A stretch of 64,000 bases of DNA from contig JAJUGU010000001.1 in the NCBI GenBank assembly GCA_029265815.1, positions 124,001-188,000 on the forward strand. The letters run 5' to 3'. Below are positions 40,286 through 48,037 of this stretch, one piece after another. The position numbers and the translations under genes are program-made. Under the pieces are notes generated by a model. It did no database searches and was not told where the DNA came from. It was given only the letters and a program-made list of their open reading frames with translations. The DNA comes from Anaerolineaceae bacterium (GTDB taxonomy: Bacteria; Chloroflexota; Anaerolineae; Anaerolineales; Anaerolineaceae). The first letter of the stretch is position 1. Each line of letters opens with the position of its first letter.

Positions 40286-40356
40286 CGGTAAAATTGTGTG
40301 GATAAACTAAGGTATAATTGATCGGCTACATAATTAACTGGGAATGGTAATCGTTT

Positions 40357-41913
40357 ATGGCAATAGACAATAATTTTTGGTTAACTTATTCCTTTTCAGA
40401 GAAAGATTTAGATTCTATCTACAATTTTCTTCTGGAAACCGAACAACCGTTAGATAAGTTTGCCATTACAAAATTTGTGGTAGAGCGTGTCATCCAAGAA
40501 CAAAAAGAATTACAAAAGTCAAAGAAGTTATCGGGGGGACAACAATATATTCCCAGTAAACAATATAAAGCTGGTGATAGACTGCTATTCCCTCAACTGG
40601 AATGGAAGAGTGGGAAGGTCGTTTCAGTGCGGTCTGGAAATAACCCCGAATTTCCTGATCTAGAAGTAATTGATGTTCATATGGCGACAAATGAAACGCT
40701 TTCTTTTGCAGCAAACCTTTCCAGCCATAAGCTCAACGCTCCGATTGTCGAAACTGAAGACCCCCTTTTGGATGTTGATGTTGTAATATCTAAATTTGGT
40801 TCAGTTCTATCCGAAAAAGTTTCTACAATTTTGTCGCAAAGCAAGGATCTGGTTTGTATTGCCAGGCAATATTTCCCAAGAGCGCTGGTCGTTGATATTG
40901 GAATCGGCCACTTAAATCTATGTGAAGCGGTACTTGAAATGGCTCAAGGTGGTCCTCTCTCTACTGCAGAACTGATTGACCAAATAGAGTTACCAACAGA
41001 TGTTAATGCTCATTTAACTGAATTTTCATTAAACCTCGCATTACAAGAAGATGGACGCTTTGATGAAGTTGGGCCGGCAGGCGTTACATTATGGTTTTTG
41101 AAACGTCTAGAACCCGTTGAAGTACAGGCTCCACCCGTTACGTTGAAGTATTCCGGTGAAATTGAGGATTTATCAGAACTTGGAATTAATCGGGACCTTG
41201 TGACAATTGGTGTGTGTGATGAATTAGAACCATCCATCGAATGTGAACCTTCTGATTCGATATCGATCAGTCTCTCATACCCACATTGGCGGGCCGGAAC
41301 TTTACCCCTCACAAACCAATTACGAGGTTTATTTCCCACCGCCTATGAAACGCCGCGAGTGAAATTTGTTTTCAAAGATGGAAATTCAGGAGAAATTTTT
41401 CCTGGTTGGGTGGTTAGACCCTCAAAATATATTTATGGTTTACGTAATTGGTACGAACAAATGGGCACCATTCCCGGCAGCATTATAACCATTGCTAAAA
41501 GTAATACACCAGGAGAAGTGATTGTTCAAACTACACGCAATAAGAATTCTAAAGACTGGATTAGAACCGTATTAATTGGCGCAGATGGTGGAATCGTTTT
41601 TGCTCTTTTAAAGCAGGTAATCTCCTGTACATTTGATGATCGCATGGCAATCATGGTTACCGACATCGATGCCTTAGATGCGATCTGGTCAAACACTTCA
41701 AAACAGCGGCAACCTGTAGAAAAAGTAATCCTTACGATGATGCGAGAATTGGGAAAATTAAATCCACAGGGTCAAATTCACGCTCAGGAACTTTATGCAG
41801 CTGTTAACGTAATCAAGCGCACTCCCCCAAGTGTGATATTAAAAACCCTTTACACTCAACCCTGGGCTAAACATCTCGGGGATCTCTATTTTAGGCTTGA
41901 TGAAAGTAACTAA
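40357..41913 (+). CDS. Unrecognised 518-residue protein, possibly nucleic-acid binding
   Basis: I do not recognise this family. The N-terminus (about 10-50) is helical and charged (EKDLDSIYNFLLE, ITKFVVERVIQE). A small beta module follows around a KAGDRLLFPQLEW strand. Near residue 200-220 (GGPLSTAELIDQIELP) and again near the C-terminus (PQGQIHAQELYAAVNVIKRT) there are helix-turn-helix-like segments resembling the HARE-type winged helix. There is no signal peptide, membrane helix or ATPase motif. A consensus TATAAT lies 39 bases before the ATG. It is three bases upstream of a 142-residue gene that also ends in a winged-helix-like stretch; the pair is probably one functional unit. Confidence 0.75.
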   Translation: MAIDNNFWLTYSFSEKDLDSIYNFLLETEQPLDKFAITKFVVERVIQEQKELQKSKKLSGGQQYIPSKQYKAGDRLLFPQLEWKSGKVVSVRSGNNPEFPDLEVIDVHMATNETLSFAANLSSHKLNAPIVETEDPLLDVDVVISKFGSVLSEKVSTILSQSKDLVCIARQYFPRALVVDIGIGHLNLCEAVLEMAQGGPLSTAELIDQIELPTDVNAHLTEFSLNLALQEDGRFDEVGPAGVTLWFLKRLEPVEVQAPPVTLKYSGEIEDLSELGINRDLVTIGVCDELEPSIECEPSDSISISLSYPHWRAGTLPLTNQLRGLFPTAYETPRVKFVFKDGNSGEIFPGWVVRPSKYIYGLRNWYEQMGTIPGSIITIAKSNTPGEVIVQTTRNKNSKDWIRTVLIGADGGIVFALLKQVISCTFDDRMAIMVTDIDALDAIWSNTSKQRQPVEKVILTMMRELGKLNPQGQIHAQELYAAVNVIKRTPPSVILKTLYTQPWAKHLGDLYFRLDESN

Positions 41914-41915
41914 AG

Positions 41916-42344
41916 ATGACAAGTAATCCTTTTAGCTTGGTAAAACCAACTAAATCAACACCTTTTCATATTGATTTTGAGTGGTGGAAAGACCACGATA
42001 ATAATTGGCGTGTATTTCTCTTTAGCTGCTTGTGTTCCGAACATCAGATTTCTTTTTCTAACCAGCCTAATAATGCACTGATTGATTGGATTGACCCTGA
42101 AACTGCAGAAATTCGACAGGTAGATGGATTACAATCGACCTTAATGAACCACTGTGCGAAACAAGAAAACTTTGTTACTGAGAACACGGCCATGGTAGAT
42201 GCAATATTTCGAATCTTTCTGGCAAATGGGAACAGTCCACTTAACGCAGAAGAATTATCTGATAAAATTGGTAAACCTGCTGAGACAATCCTACGGACTT
42301 TGTCAGGATTAACTGTCTATCGCGGTATTCGTCCTTGTATCTAG
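41916..42344 (+). CDS. Unrecognised 142-residue protein with winged-helix-like C-terminus
   Basis: Not recognised. The first 60 residues are rich in aromatic residues (FEWWKDHDNNWRVFLF) with an isolated CLC pair. The last 55 read like a small winged helix (DAIFRIFLANGNSPLNAEELSDKIGKP). It starts three bases after the upstream unknown protein and ends 10 bases before a tRNA gene, so it closes that operon. Confidence 0.7.
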   Translation: MTSNPFSLVKPTKSTPFHIDFEWWKDHDNNWRVFLFSCLCSEHQISFSNQPNNALIDWIDPETAEIRQVDGLQSTLMNHCAKQENFVTENTAMVDAIFRIFLANGNSPLNAEELSDKIGKPAETILRTLSGLTVYRGIRPCI

Positions 42345-42354
42345 AAGAAAATTT

Positions 42355-42427
42355 GCCCCCGTAGCGCAACGGACAGAGCACCAGCCTTCTAAGCTGTTGG
42401 TTGTGGGTTCGAATCCCACCGGGGGCG
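42355..42427 (+). tRNA. tRNA-Arg (anticodon TCT)
   Basis: Complete cloverleaf. The acceptor stem is GCCCCCG (42355-42361) with CGGGGGC (42420-42426). The anticodon loop CTTCTAA has TCT at 42388-42390. The T-arm is GTGGG-TTCGAAT-CCCAC. The D-stem has one G-A mismatch and the anticodon stem one C-U mismatch at its outer pair. The 3' CCA is not encoded. It decodes AGA/AGG. Confidence 0.96.
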
Positions 42428-42528
42428 CTAGTCGTTTAATTAGTAAGTCGCAATTTTTTCCCTTAAGATTACAAGATTATAAAATGATACAATGATTAAA
42501 TGAATTTTATTTATTATAGGAAGAAGTA

Positions 42529-44289
42529 ATGAGGCCTTTAAAGCAACCAAGCAAAAAACAATGGTACACAATGGATATTCATATCCATACACCATTATCT
42601 ATAGATTATCAGCAACCAGAAATCACGTTTCTAGAAATCCTCAAGAAAGCGGAATCAAGAAACCTCGATATAATTTCATTCACAGATCACAATACAATAG
42701 CCGGTTATAGAACTTTACGAGAGGAGGTGGAAAAACTCGAATTACTGGAAAAACTCAACAGATTGCTTCCAGATGAAAACAGGCAATTACAGGAATATCG
42801 TACATTGCTTAAAAAAATTCTTGTATTACCCGGATTTGAATTTACTGCTACTTTTGGGTTCCATATTATAGGTCTTTTCTCCCCTTCGAAAAGTGTTCGT
42901 GAAATTGAGCATGTCCTCCTCGATCTGGGAATCCCTCCATCAAATTTAGATGAGGGCAATCCTGCCATTGGCGCCTCAGTGGATGTGATCACTGCATATC
43001 GAGTCATTAACGAAGCTGGTGGAATCGTAATCGCTGCTCACGCCAATTCCAGCAATGGGGTTGCCATGCGTGGATTGAATTTTGGCGGCCAAACAAGGAT
43101 TGCATATACTCAGGATCGAAATTTACATGCTTTGGAAGTCACTGACCTTGATCAGAAAGGTCCTCGAACAACAGCTGCATTTTTTAATGGAACAAAACCA
43201 GAATATCCACGAAGGATGCATTGTATACAGGGGTCAGATGCACACCGGTTAAACACTGATACCGTCAGAAAAAAGAATCCAGGGATTGGTGACAGGGCAA
43301 CCGATGTTTTGCTCAGTGATCTAAGTTTTGAATCGCTCTTAGAATTATTTAAATCAAACGATTTTTCACGTACCCGCCCACACAGGCAATCGCTTGAACC
43401 AGTTTACGATTATATTCAAGCAGCGCGAGAAGAAGGTCCGAACATCATACAGGATTTTCATGAAAATATTAATGTCAGAGGAGGCAATTTATATGCAACT
43501 TTGGCAGATATATGCGCCTTTTCAAATACAAACGGAGGCACTTTGTATATTGGGTTTTCCTCCAATCTTCAACAACCAGTAGTTGGAATCTCCAATCCCG
43601 ATCAAGCAATCTCGCAATTGGAAAAGGAGATACAAAATCGGATTAGTCCCCCATTGCATCTAAGTTTAGATATTCAGAAATATAAAAATAAACCGGTTCT
43701 AAGGATTTTAATCCCACGCGGAGAAGAGCCTCCGTATGCTTTAGATGAAAATAAGATCTTCATCAGGGACGAAGATGAGACAAACCTTGCGGTCAGAGAC
43801 GAGATCGTTACCCTTGTGTTGAGAGGAAAAGAACACGCGATGCTCACCGCATCAACTCAGGAAACACCGGTCATTACCACTACTACTCCAATAGAGACTG
43901 AGCTGGAATTAAAACAAGATGAGGACACAGATATTCCACGCACAGGCGTAGAAGTAATCGCGCCAGTCATTCGCGGCGGCAAGTATTTTTTCACGATGCG
44001 AGATTTACGTAATGGTAACCTCGTCAAAAACGTTACACAGGCATCTGCTCGCCGCTTATGGCATTATGCTATCATGCGCTATAACGAGATTATTTCCTCG
44101 ATTGAAACTACTGATATCCAATGGAATGGTAATTACGGCTTAATTCGGCAATATTCACATGGTAAAAATCAACTTTTCGATTTTGTTTTGAAAACTGAAT
44201 CAGGCTATCGCCTTTTCTTTGGGGTTACTGCAGATGGGATCCATGGCTCTTGGAAATATTTCCTGAAAGAAGAGGAACAAAGTGGCTAA
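42529..44289 (+). CDS. PHP phosphoesterase fused to an AlbA_2 (Schlafen-type) domain
   Basis: Fusion of 586 residues. Residues about 12-260 are a PHP metal-dependent phosphoesterase: DIHIHTPLS, FTDHNTIAGY, PGFEFTA, AAHANSS and QGSDAH carry the expected ligands. Residues about 300-425 are an AlbA_2/Schlafen-like nucleic-acid-binding module (TLADICAFSNTNGGTLYIGF, a typical signature, followed by KPVLRILIPRGEEPPYA). Residues about 460-586 form an extra unassigned domain with several Trp/Tyr-rich strands. The combination suggests a nucleic-acid-directed phosphoesterase. It is encoded 100 bases after tRNA-Arg and overlaps the mog gene by eight bases. Confidence 0.82.
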   Translation: MRPLKQPSKKQWYTMDIHIHTPLSIDYQQPEITFLEILKKAESRNLDIISFTDHNTIAGYRTLREEVEKLELLEKLNRLLPDENRQLQEYRTLLKKILVLPGFEFTATFGFHIIGLFSPSKSVREIEHVLLDLGIPPSNLDEGNPAIGASVDVITAYRVINEAGGIVIAAHANSSNGVAMRGLNFGGQTRIAYTQDRNLHALEVTDLDQKGPRTTAAFFNGTKPEYPRRMHCIQGSDAHRLNTDTVRKKNPGIGDRATDVLLSDLSFESLLELFKSNDFSRTRPHRQSLEPVYDYIQAAREEGPNIIQDFHENINVRGGNLYATLADICAFSNTNGGTLYIGFSSNLQQPVVGISNPDQAISQLEKEIQNRISPPLHLSLDIQKYKNKPVLRILIPRGEEPPYALDENKIFIRDEDETNLAVRDEIVTLVLRGKEHAMLTASTQETPVITTTTPIETELELKQDEDTDIPRTGVEVIAPVIRGGKYFFTMRDLRNGNLVKNVTQASARRLWHYAIMRYNEIISSIETTDIQWNGNYGLIRQYSHGKNQLFDFVLKTESGYRLFFGVTADGIHGSWKYFLKEEEQSG

Positions 44290-45595: not shown

Positions 45596-48037
45596 ATGAC
45601 TCTTCCTCCAATCGATCTCTTTTCATTTTTTTTCGGATTTGTCTTAGGGCTTATCGTTGTAATTATTGTTTCTCGAATCAAGAAACTTCAGCCGCAATTA
45701 AAAGCAGCTCGTGAAAATAAGAAGCAAAAAATTCAGGTAAGCGGTATTAATGAATGTGAACGCTTATATAAAAAATATATGTTGAGCAAATGCCAGCATT
45801 CGCATTTGGCTTCGGCATTATTTTCGTTAGATAATATTTACGTTGACTTAAAATTAATCGGTCGCCCTTTTTACTCCAATCCTGAGTATTACCTTGAAAA
45901 TGAGCCATTAGTTTTTCAACACTTTCCAATTGCATTTGGAGATCCTGAAGGATATGCTGACCTTCCAGTTCCATTGTTGACACTGGAACAGGCACTTGAA
46001 GGTGGTAGAAATCTGGTCATCATGAATGAAATTGGAAGCGGAAAAACGACATTACTGGCAGAATTTGCTTCTCGTATCCTTGAAGGAAAACTTGACTCTC
46101 AAAAATATTCATCCTCACTTCCACTATTCATAAACATCAATGAAATAAAATATCTAAATCTTGATGCTTTACAATTCATTGACGAACTCGTTGCTGTGCT
46201 ACACCAGAACTTTACGAATTTGGAAGTGGCGAATCTCAAAAAGTTAATATTGAATGCCTTAGACCAATCTGCGTTGATCTTACTTCTTGATGGGTTTGAC
46301 GAATTACCCTTCGAAAAATTTCAAGAAGCAGTCAGACTCACAGGATCGATTATCTCGAAGTATCCACAGATAAAAATCATTATAGCGTCAGGGCCTGACT
46401 ATGCGGACGGATTATTTAAATTAGGGTTTGCTCCCCTCTCAATTCAATTTCCAGGTTCGACACAGAAAGCTGAGTTGATTCAATCCTGGGTTGATGCATG
46501 GAATCACATTAAGTCAACAAAAGGTCCCAACGCGCAGTCCTATTTAATCAATACTCTCTGGTTGCTTCAAGATTCGCAATCTCAATCAATGATCGAGTTA
46601 ACACAAGCGATTTGGTCAAATCTCGCTCTGGATCATATTCCTGAGCACCAAAATTATACATTTGATTATATTCAAAGGTTAATTGACGAAATCGTCTCTT
46701 TCGATACATTGGTCAACGCCGCCGAAAAAATTGCTCTATCAGATTACCGAATGATTCCTTATAACGAAATGGTCAATCTCGTAAAAAAAGACCTTATTAC
46801 TTCTCAGTTCTTAAGAGAGGCGCGAAATAGAGTTCAAGGAGAGATTTCACGAAATGAGCAGAGCATTCAAAAGGAATTTATCAGTGTTGAAGAGGTGATC
46901 GATTTTTTAGTCGAAATTAACCTCCTGGCAAGAAGGCAACAAGATAATCTTACTTTTGCAAATCCAGCAATACTGGGTTATCTGTTAGCGCAATCAAAAA
47001 TATATTCCCTTCGAAATGATTGGAAATTCTTGCTTCGTTCACCATTAGATCTGATCGTTCTTTATAACTCGCAGCATCAGAATGATTTCTTGCCTGAATG
47101 GATTGCTGATAATGATCCTTTATTATTTAGAAACTTGATGCTTTCCGGAAGGCAGATGAAAAAATGCAAACATGATCGTTTCTTTTACTCGTCGCTTGCC
47201 CGGAGATTGTTACCTGTAATTTTAGATGAATCTATACCCGTGTCTATTCGATTAAAAATTTTTCCATTGTTCGATATCGAGTCGCAGGGTTATTCGCAGC
47301 TTCTTGAGCGGTTAATGAATCACTCCTCTCGAAACATACGACAATTGGTTGCTCTAAATCTTGGCAGACATAAAAGTATAAATAATGTTAAGCTGCTAAA
47401 GTCATTACTTGAAGATCCTGAAATGAATGTGAGAATGGCAGCCTGCCTTTCTCTGTATAGAATTTTTAATGATGAATGTATTGATTTACTTGCGAATATA
47501 TTATTGACCGGAAAAGATAATTTATGTATTTTTGTGGCAGAACTAATGGCCTTTAAGCCAGGTCAAGGATATGCAATTCTGAAAGAATTGTTAGAGACAG
47601 AGAATATCATTAGCAAGAAAGCTGCAATTAGCGGGTTGCGATTGATAAATGAAAAATGGGCTGATGATCTATTGCAGCGTGTAAGCACAACTGATGAACA
47701 GTGGTTTGTGCGTGATGCTGCTGCACACGCCCTTGAGTCCAAGTGGAATCTTAACCTCTATATTCCGTCAAAAAGACATGATCCATCAGAATTATCCTGG
47801 TTGATAAAATTTGCAAGCCAGGAAGGCCATAGTGTTCCTGCGGGAATTTATCCTTATGCTTTGCTTTACCGGATCATCGATTCGGGGACAATTGAGGAAC
47901 GTTTGGTATCCATGGCATATCTTTATGATAAACCAGATGAACAAACCTTACCAAAATTAAAAGAGTTGATGGAATCGGATAACCCACTGCGTGAAGAATC
48001 AACTCAGTTATTTATTCAGTTAAATCAGATAAAGTAA
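45596..48037 (+). CDS. Membrane-anchored NACHT-like STAND ATPase with HEAT repeats
   Basis: Protein of 813 residues with one N-terminal membrane helix (about 8-27), a basic linker, then a NACHT/STAND-type NTPase. The P-loop is NEIGSGKTT (about 143-151) and Walker B is LLLDGFDELPF (about 229-239). A helical middle region is followed by tandem HEAT/armadillo repeats from about 570 to 730 (RQLVALNLGRHK, RMAACLSLYRIF, VRDAAAHALESKW). NLR-like regulators and some phage-defence proteins share this plan, but the membrane anchor and the absence of an effector domain argue for a signalling or scaffold role. It lies three bases after the zinc-ribbon gene. Substrate or trigger unknown. Confidence 0.8.
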   Translation: MTLPPIDLFSFFFGFVLGLIVVIIVSRIKKLQPQLKAARENKKQKIQVSGINECERLYKKYMLSKCQHSHLASALFSLDNIYVDLKLIGRPFYSNPEYYLENEPLVFQHFPIAFGDPEGYADLPVPLLTLEQALEGGRNLVIMNEIGSGKTTLLAEFASRILEGKLDSQKYSSSLPLFININEIKYLNLDALQFIDELVAVLHQNFTNLEVANLKKLILNALDQSALILLLDGFDELPFEKFQEAVRLTGSIISKYPQIKIIIASGPDYADGLFKLGFAPLSIQFPGSTQKAELIQSWVDAWNHIKSTKGPNAQSYLINTLWLLQDSQSQSMIELTQAIWSNLALDHIPEHQNYTFDYIQRLIDEIVSFDTLVNAAEKIALSDYRMIPYNEMVNLVKKDLITSQFLREARNRVQGEISRNEQSIQKEFISVEEVIDFLVEINLLARRQQDNLTFANPAILGYLLAQSKIYSLRNDWKFLLRSPLDLIVLYNSQHQNDFLPEWIADNDPLLFRNLMLSGRQMKKCKHDRFFYSSLARRLLPVILDESIPVSIRLKIFPLFDIESQGYSQLLERLMNHSSRNIRQLVALNLGRHKSINNVKLLKSLLEDPEMNVRMAACLSLYRIFNDECIDLLANILLTGKDNLCIFVAELMAFKPGQGYAILKELLETENIISKKAAISGLRLINEKWADDLLQRVSTTDEQWFVRDAAAHALESKWNLNLYIPSKRHDPSELSWLIKFASQEGHSVPAGIYPYALLYRIIDSGTIEERLVSMAYLYDKPDEQTLPKLKELMESDNPLREESTQLFIQLNQIK

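Follow-up and report, generated by a model that had tools for sequence, protein, structure and literature searches.

On balance, two adjacent genes in the window (the whole 64,000-nucleotide stretch of DNA that was analysed) probably make up a single operon that encodes a housekeeping DNA-binding complex, which would act as a global regulator or chromosome-structuring factor. As a pair, they belong to the core genes of an entire bacterial class, the Anaerolineae, and have neither a family model nor a known function. The larger protein is predicted to carry, between two winged helices, a B3-type pseudobarrel, which is known from regulators of plant genes and from restriction enzymes. If this reading of the fold is true, the protein would be a B3-type DNA reader that belongs to the normal chromosome, not to a restriction enzyme, and has relatives inside methyltransferase enzymes. 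The pair would then provide a testable way into gene regulation in the Anaerolineae, for which, to our knowledge, little genetics exists, and into the history of bacterial B3 domains, as well as an entry to a modular DNA-reading unit of restriction-modification (RM) enzymes that is missed by Pfam.

The domains themselves are of known kinds; as far as was searched, what is new is their arrangement, their chromosomal place and the link to RM enzymes. No description of the pair was found in the titles and abstracts searched, a body with most subscription journals outside its reach, and the arrangement, the stable chromosomal place and the RM link were likewise absent from them. As far as the literature searches reached, the use of a B3 domain in a core chromosomal complex is not described in bacteria, where such domains are described in restriction enzymes.

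The gene pair and its upstream element

Both open reading frames proposed by a sequence-only reading of positions 40357-42344 exist at those coordinates (Table 1). The gap between them is two bases, the TAA of the large gene ending at 41913 and the ATG of the small gene starting at 41916, and not three as had been stated. The source genome comprises 2.58 Mb in 26 contigs and contains the pair once. The earlier statement that neither protein belongs to a known family was borne out, as searches against Pfam-A, NCBIfam and PADLOC gave no credible match for either protein, and Pfam-A and NCBIfam gave none for their homologues. Matches of the large protein to C5orf34_C (0.13) and intimin (0.057) were dismissed as chance matches covering fragments only, and searches of PDB sequences with the large protein and with profiles of both proteins reached a best E of 0.15. 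A metabolic enzyme was thus rejected. By eye, neither a signal peptide nor an enzyme motif was seen in either protein, in agreement with the sequence-only reading, and neither protein contains a methyltransferase or nuclease domain. A degenerate RNase II was also rejected: the wH_RNase_II model matched 4 of 36 large-protein homologues (best E 0.024), and the RNase domain was absent from the seven longer homologues of other classes that were scanned.

Table 1. Features of the gene pair in the window (positions are those of the window; residues are those of the respective protein)
Feature	Position	Strand	Basis or description
Conserved element TRRGGTATAATW around GTATAAT (40312-40318)	40308..40319	+	Conservation upstream of the large gene
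Large gene	40357..41913	+	ORF, 518 aa; predicted multi-domain DNA-binding protein
Large protein, N-terminal helices (residues 7-59) and beta region (75-119)	40375..40713	+	AlphaFold2 secondary structure
Large protein, predicted internal winged helix, residues 140-252 (fold match 180-252)	40774..41112	+	Structure comparison, Z up to 8.0
Large protein, predicted B3-type DNA-binding pseudobarrel, residues 298-396	41248..41544	+	21 best structure rows
Large protein, predicted C-terminal winged helix, residues 437-518	41665..41910	+	Matches over 450-518 to IdeR and Zur, Z 7.0-7.1
Small gene	41916..42344	+	ORF, 142 aa; predicted winged-helix partner protein
Small protein, likely metal site C40, H43, C80 (H79 variable)	42033..42155	+	Cys/His conservation in homologues
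Small protein, predicted C-terminal winged helix, residues 88-142	42177..42341	+	Best Z 4.0, to a Z-DNA-binding domain (weak)

The three flanking window genes that were scanned encode M23/LysM, SLFN_AlbA_2 and NACHT-HEAT proteins, placing the pair outside any RM cluster there. Directly 3' of the small gene lies a tRNA-Arg gene (anticodon TCT, 42355-42428), followed at 42529-44289 by the gene for a 586-aa protein with an SLFN_AlbA_2 domain and, by eye, a PHP-like N-terminus. The 813-aa protein encoded at 45596-48037 combines a NACHT NTPase domain with HEAT repeats and is possibly a signalling or defence-type NTPase. In the class, Hsp20 and Lon genes are often found 3' of the pair (families confirmed in locus L020).

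A scan of GTDB contigs returned 51 loci with a relative of the large protein, with 36-58% identity over the best segment. Their titles name Chloroflexi/Chloroflexota, Anaerolineae or its members, and it is from these record titles that the class name used here is taken. The small protein, recognised by eye in the translations, was encoded directly downstream in all 45 of these loci that were examined, which indicates more than a chance pair of reading frames. Of the 150 class genomes searched, 139 were matched by the large-protein profile (including G265, matched only via an enzyme-fused relative) and 140 had a match to the small protein, each gene being mostly single-copy. Both genes were present in 137 genomes, neither in eight and one alone in five, corresponding to a Fisher p of 1.4e-9 for co-occurrence with kinship ignored; in each of the five single-gene genomes, the contig end was too near for the partner to fit. 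The genes were adjacent and on the same strand, with the small gene downstream, in 129 of the 137 two-gene genomes. Two others (G204 and G289) were scored apart only through a shortened profile match, their reading frames (loci L109 and L110) lying 7 and 13 bases from the small gene, and the remainder consisted of one genome with a 709-base gap and five with matches on different contigs. Six of the eight genomes without either gene were all the sampled members of families f77, f100 and f104, possibly lineage losses or early branches, and the other two belong to families otherwise carrying the pair. Ten class genomes have the small gene together with a large-gene match that is limited to the N-terminal half; reading frames stopping after this half were read in four loci (L080, L081, L111, L112). 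This pattern suggests that the partner surface lies in the N-terminal half.

The region upstream of the large gene is also conserved. All 45 loci, among them the window, have GTATAAT on the coding strand in the 200 nt before the start of the gene. It lies 42-139 nt from the start in 44 loci and 45 nt in the window, and the base four before it was T in all except one. First-order shuffles of 44 upstream regions contained the motif in a mean of 0.8 and at most 5 of 44, and it occurred in 8 of 325 control regions upstream of genes from 23 neighbouring families, a lenient control in that many of these genes lie inside operons and four of the eight positives came from one family. The window as a whole showed no enrichment (10 copies against 8.05 expected). 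Of 63 more distant loci, 43 have TATAAT and 25 have GTATAAT. A -35 box showed no conservation in the 45 loci, and a gapped palindrome was common to at most three of the 45 upstream regions (shuffles at most two). The simplest reading of GTATAAT is a perfect -10 hexamer, the alternative being an operator.

Predicted folds of the two proteins

AlphaFold2 modelled the large protein with a mean pLDDT of 86.5. In the structure comparison, the coverage of which excludes residues 1-130, the 21 top rows all fell in the centre of the protein (residues 297-301 to 393-428), with Z values of 8.1-11.3 and rmsd values of 2.3-3.0. All 21 chains are taken to be B3 domains, including some whose titles do not say B3. 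The best row was the plant protein VAL1 (Z 11.3, rmsd 2.8, 97 aligned residues), which was accompanied by ARF5, FUS3, ARF1, LEC2 and NGA1 and by two bacterial restriction proteins, LlaJI.R1 (N-terminal domain, Z 10.1) and BfiI (Z 8.1); over residues 298-396, the likeness to B3 pseudobarrels, R.NgoAVII included, extended to up to 98 aligned residues. Foldseek likewise placed VAL1 first (probability 1.00, E 0.015), with nothing below 0.001. On the predicted model, the structure rows thus place residues 298-396 in the seven-stranded B3-type pseudobarrel fold, a known DNA-binding fold, between two winged helices. None of the sequence methods recognised the domain: with E up to 1, the Pfam B3 model PF02362 had no hit in the genome of the window, and it matched 0 of 21 module members. 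Within the alignment of the large-protein profile (A1), H310, R312, W351 and R354 are invariant.

The winged helices follow after the B3 rows, from Z 8.0 downward, over residues 180-252 and 450-518. AlphaFold2 and the structure comparison support both winged helices that had been suspected in the large protein, the internal one at 182-252 and the C-terminal one at about 437/450-518. The Z values of the internal domain were tied among many winged helices and, since values under 8 may reflect a common arrangement only, these matches single out no relative. Compared with PDB sequences, the internal winged helix gave chance matches only (best E 1). The central B3-type pseudobarrel had been missed by the sequence-only reading, as had the likely metal site and the methyltransferase fusions described below.

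The small protein was modelled with a mean pLDDT of 87.5. The C-terminal winged helix that had been suggested for it can be placed at about residues 88-142, although its structural match is weak. HTH_20 matched 12 of 44 small-protein homologues (best E 0.0014), which are weak HTH-family matches, and Foldseek returned a best E above 2 (nothing below 2.3). Positions 40, 43 and 80 were C, C/H and C together in 126 of 144 distinct homologues (kinship ignored), and all ligands were absent in 12, namely from families f3, f5, f7, f84, f106 and f108 and from locus L017. The remaining homologues comprised one with a masked base at 43, one without 40 and 43 and with a gap at 80, one mixed case keeping only C80, and three partial ones. 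Position 79 was H or C in most homologues, not all. Such joint keeping and joint absence is the pattern that a metal site would give, and a metal site at 40/43/80, perhaps of zinc type, is likely, judging from the residue conservation.

Fusions to restriction-modification enzymes and the probable role of the pair

Remote relatives of the large protein form the N-terminal part of enzymes of the Eco57I type (type IIG) and of HsdM-like N6 methyltransferases, unlike the large protein of the window, which has no methyltransferase part. In locus L093 (873 aa), an A1 match from 55 to 515 is combined with an N6_Mtase domain at 646-766, and in L095 (2054 aa) a match from 16 to 484 is combined with Eco57I and TaqI_C domains. 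The protein of L094 (1122 aa) has a match from 54 to 397 and no Pfam domain, and the next gene matches type II methyltransferases; by eye, its C-terminal part (L094:763-4131) resembles a LAGLIDADG-type endonuclease, on which Pfam is silent. Compared with the module of L093, those of L094 and L095 show 64% and 72% identity, and the rest of the proteins differs. A profile built from these three modules (A3) matched 27 of 396 class genomes (E up to 1e-10), mostly in reading frames about as long as the chromosomal gene (about 520-590 aa), and module frames over 700 aa were found in 8 of the 396 (G211, G250, G265, G359, G436, G461, G487, G493).

Several of the long enzyme fusions carry the N-terminal half of the module only, and fusions to type IIG-like enzymes most often involve its N-terminal helices and beta region. 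Of three proteins from loci L173 and L174, one scored above the Eco57I cut-off and two fell narrowly short of it; L175 and L176 appear similar by eye. Loci L174, L175 and L176 contain tandem pairs of long Eco57I-like genes, each beginning with part of the module and separated by a gene of about 320-330 aa with a weak match to the large-protein profile. In L177, the N-terminal half of the module is a separate 236-aa gene beside an AAA protein (L177:251-3760) that by eye is McrB-like with an inserted B3-like stretch. Locus L096 holds two overlapping open reading frames (L096:3145-4454), of which one has a match to the large protein's B3 region, adjoining RecQ-like helicase and methylase-like genes (both by eye). 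No small-protein homologue was found in loci L093-L096 and L173-L177.

Among known systems, the B3 domains of R.CglI and R.NgoAVII bind cognate DNA (PMC4267653). From this function and the predicted fold we infer that the large protein binds DNA. R.NgoAVII/CglI and BfiI are bacterial B3-like DNA readers (PMC4267653), and the window module shares their RM association through the fusions; they differ in that they carry a PLD nuclease domain and sit in RM gene clusters, whereas the window pair does neither. Compared with known B3 proteins in general, the domain of the window is missed by the Pfam B3 model, lies between winged helices in a nuclease-free chromosomal protein, and has a small winged-helix partner. 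Complex formation with this partner is suggested by the pairing and by the ten genomes that keep the small gene beside an N-terminal half. In the mechanism proposed, the large subunit would hold double-stranded DNA, probably at specific sites, by its B3-type pseudobarrel, and its flanking winged helices would add DNA or protein contacts. The small subunit, as a metal-stabilised winged-helix protein, would bind the N-terminal half of the large one and add a contact surface. The complex may work as a global regulator or chromosome-structuring factor driven by a strong, conserved promoter, and the module would double as a DNA-reading front end in some RM enzymes of these bacteria. Several observations run counter to parts of this mechanism. 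The B3 half is missing in the ten genomes with N-terminal halves, so B3 binding is not needed in all. Furthermore, the B3 domain has no sequence support and a Foldseek E of 0.015, the small-protein Z is 4.0, unpaired homologues occur elsewhere, the search for shared upstream palindromes brought out no binding site, and eight class genomes have neither gene.

The large protein could instead be a domesticated RM component, derived from the DNA-reading module of an enzyme and now a solitary reader of host DNA modification or a defence or anti-restriction factor. The fusions to an N6 methyltransferase (L093) and to an Eco57I/TaqI-type enzyme (L095), the module frames over 700 aa in the class and the proposal that HARE-HTH winged helices discriminate DNA modifications in such systems (PMC10853773) all speak for it. 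We nevertheless regard this origin as rather unlikely, as nuclease and methyltransferase domains are both lacking from the chromosomal pair, which is also far commoner (139 of 150 genomes) than the fusions (8 of 396). Nor does a mobile origin find support: the pair had no match in the plasmids and phages scanned and, in the viral contigs scanned, 42 and 26 stretches fitted the pattern and none was confirmed.

Another suggestion is an RNA-polymerase-associated, delta-like factor, whose internal winged helix would bind the polymerase and whose acidic tail, present in relatives from other classes, would compete with nucleic acid. Delta subunits do appear among the rows over residues 180-334 (8x6g Z 7.5, 9a6y Z 7.4, 6zfb Z 7.1), and residues 180-252 share the winged-helix fold of HARE-HTH and delta. 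These Z values, however, tie with those of unrelated winged helices, to which the domain fits equally well, the large protein of the window has no acidic tail, and the HARE-HTH model (PF05066), with E up to 1, found nothing in the genome of the window and matched 1 of 21 homologous module domains (E 0.039), which makes such a factor improbable. Least probable, and by our estimate highly unlikely, is an RNA-binding or translation-related factor with winged helices contacting RNA. It would fit the SelB winged helices among the weak Foldseek rows, the few RNase II winged-helix matches (4 of 36 homologues, best E 0.024) and the presence of yebC near small-protein homologues of other classes, but the best-supported domain is the B3-type pseudobarrel and the fused enzymes act on DNA.

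Returning to a housekeeping DNA-binding complex, a further and doubtful extension is that a plant-like B3 domain gives the class a core complex for reading its chromosomal DNA, and that RM enzymes of these bacteria, through their copies of the module, read the same DNA feature as this complex or dock at its sites. The complex would then be a genome-wide landmark system linking regulation with self/non-self marking.

Homologues outside the class

The pair had been proposed to be a lineage-specific transcription or chromosome factor. Class-wide conservation, strict pairing and the predicted winged helices agree with this proposal, but neither family is confined to the class. When 201 genomes of the phylum were searched, the protein query found matches in 46, of which 25 belong to the class and 21 do not. 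The A1 profile matched 36 (the same 25 and 11 others), nine of the 11 being among the 21. The genomes listed include no unmatched class member, in a list that leaves out 135 unmatched genomes. The small-protein profile matched 50 of the 201, again 25 of the class and 25 others. None of these 25 non-class genomes is among those carrying distant large-protein homologues, so that, within the reach of these searches, neither gene is accompanied by the other outside the class.

The distant large-protein homologues, of which 11 loci were read, are 539-707 aa long and have a different N-terminus, and several of those from other classes have an acidic tail at the end. They can be aligned with the large protein of the window over the internal winged helix, the B3 region and the C-terminal winged helix; L109 and L110, which belong to the class, appear to stand in between. 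In the representative distant locus L088, the following genes encode a HEAT-repeat protein, a PIG-L-type deacetylase, a FemAB protein and a Mur ligase, and clusters of this type recur among the distant large-gene loci.

Small-protein homologues of other classes lie near yebC in four of the seven loci whose neighbours were scanned (L099, L103, L104 and L105, all without the large gene). In L104 ruvA is also nearby, and in L105 both ruvA and ruvC.
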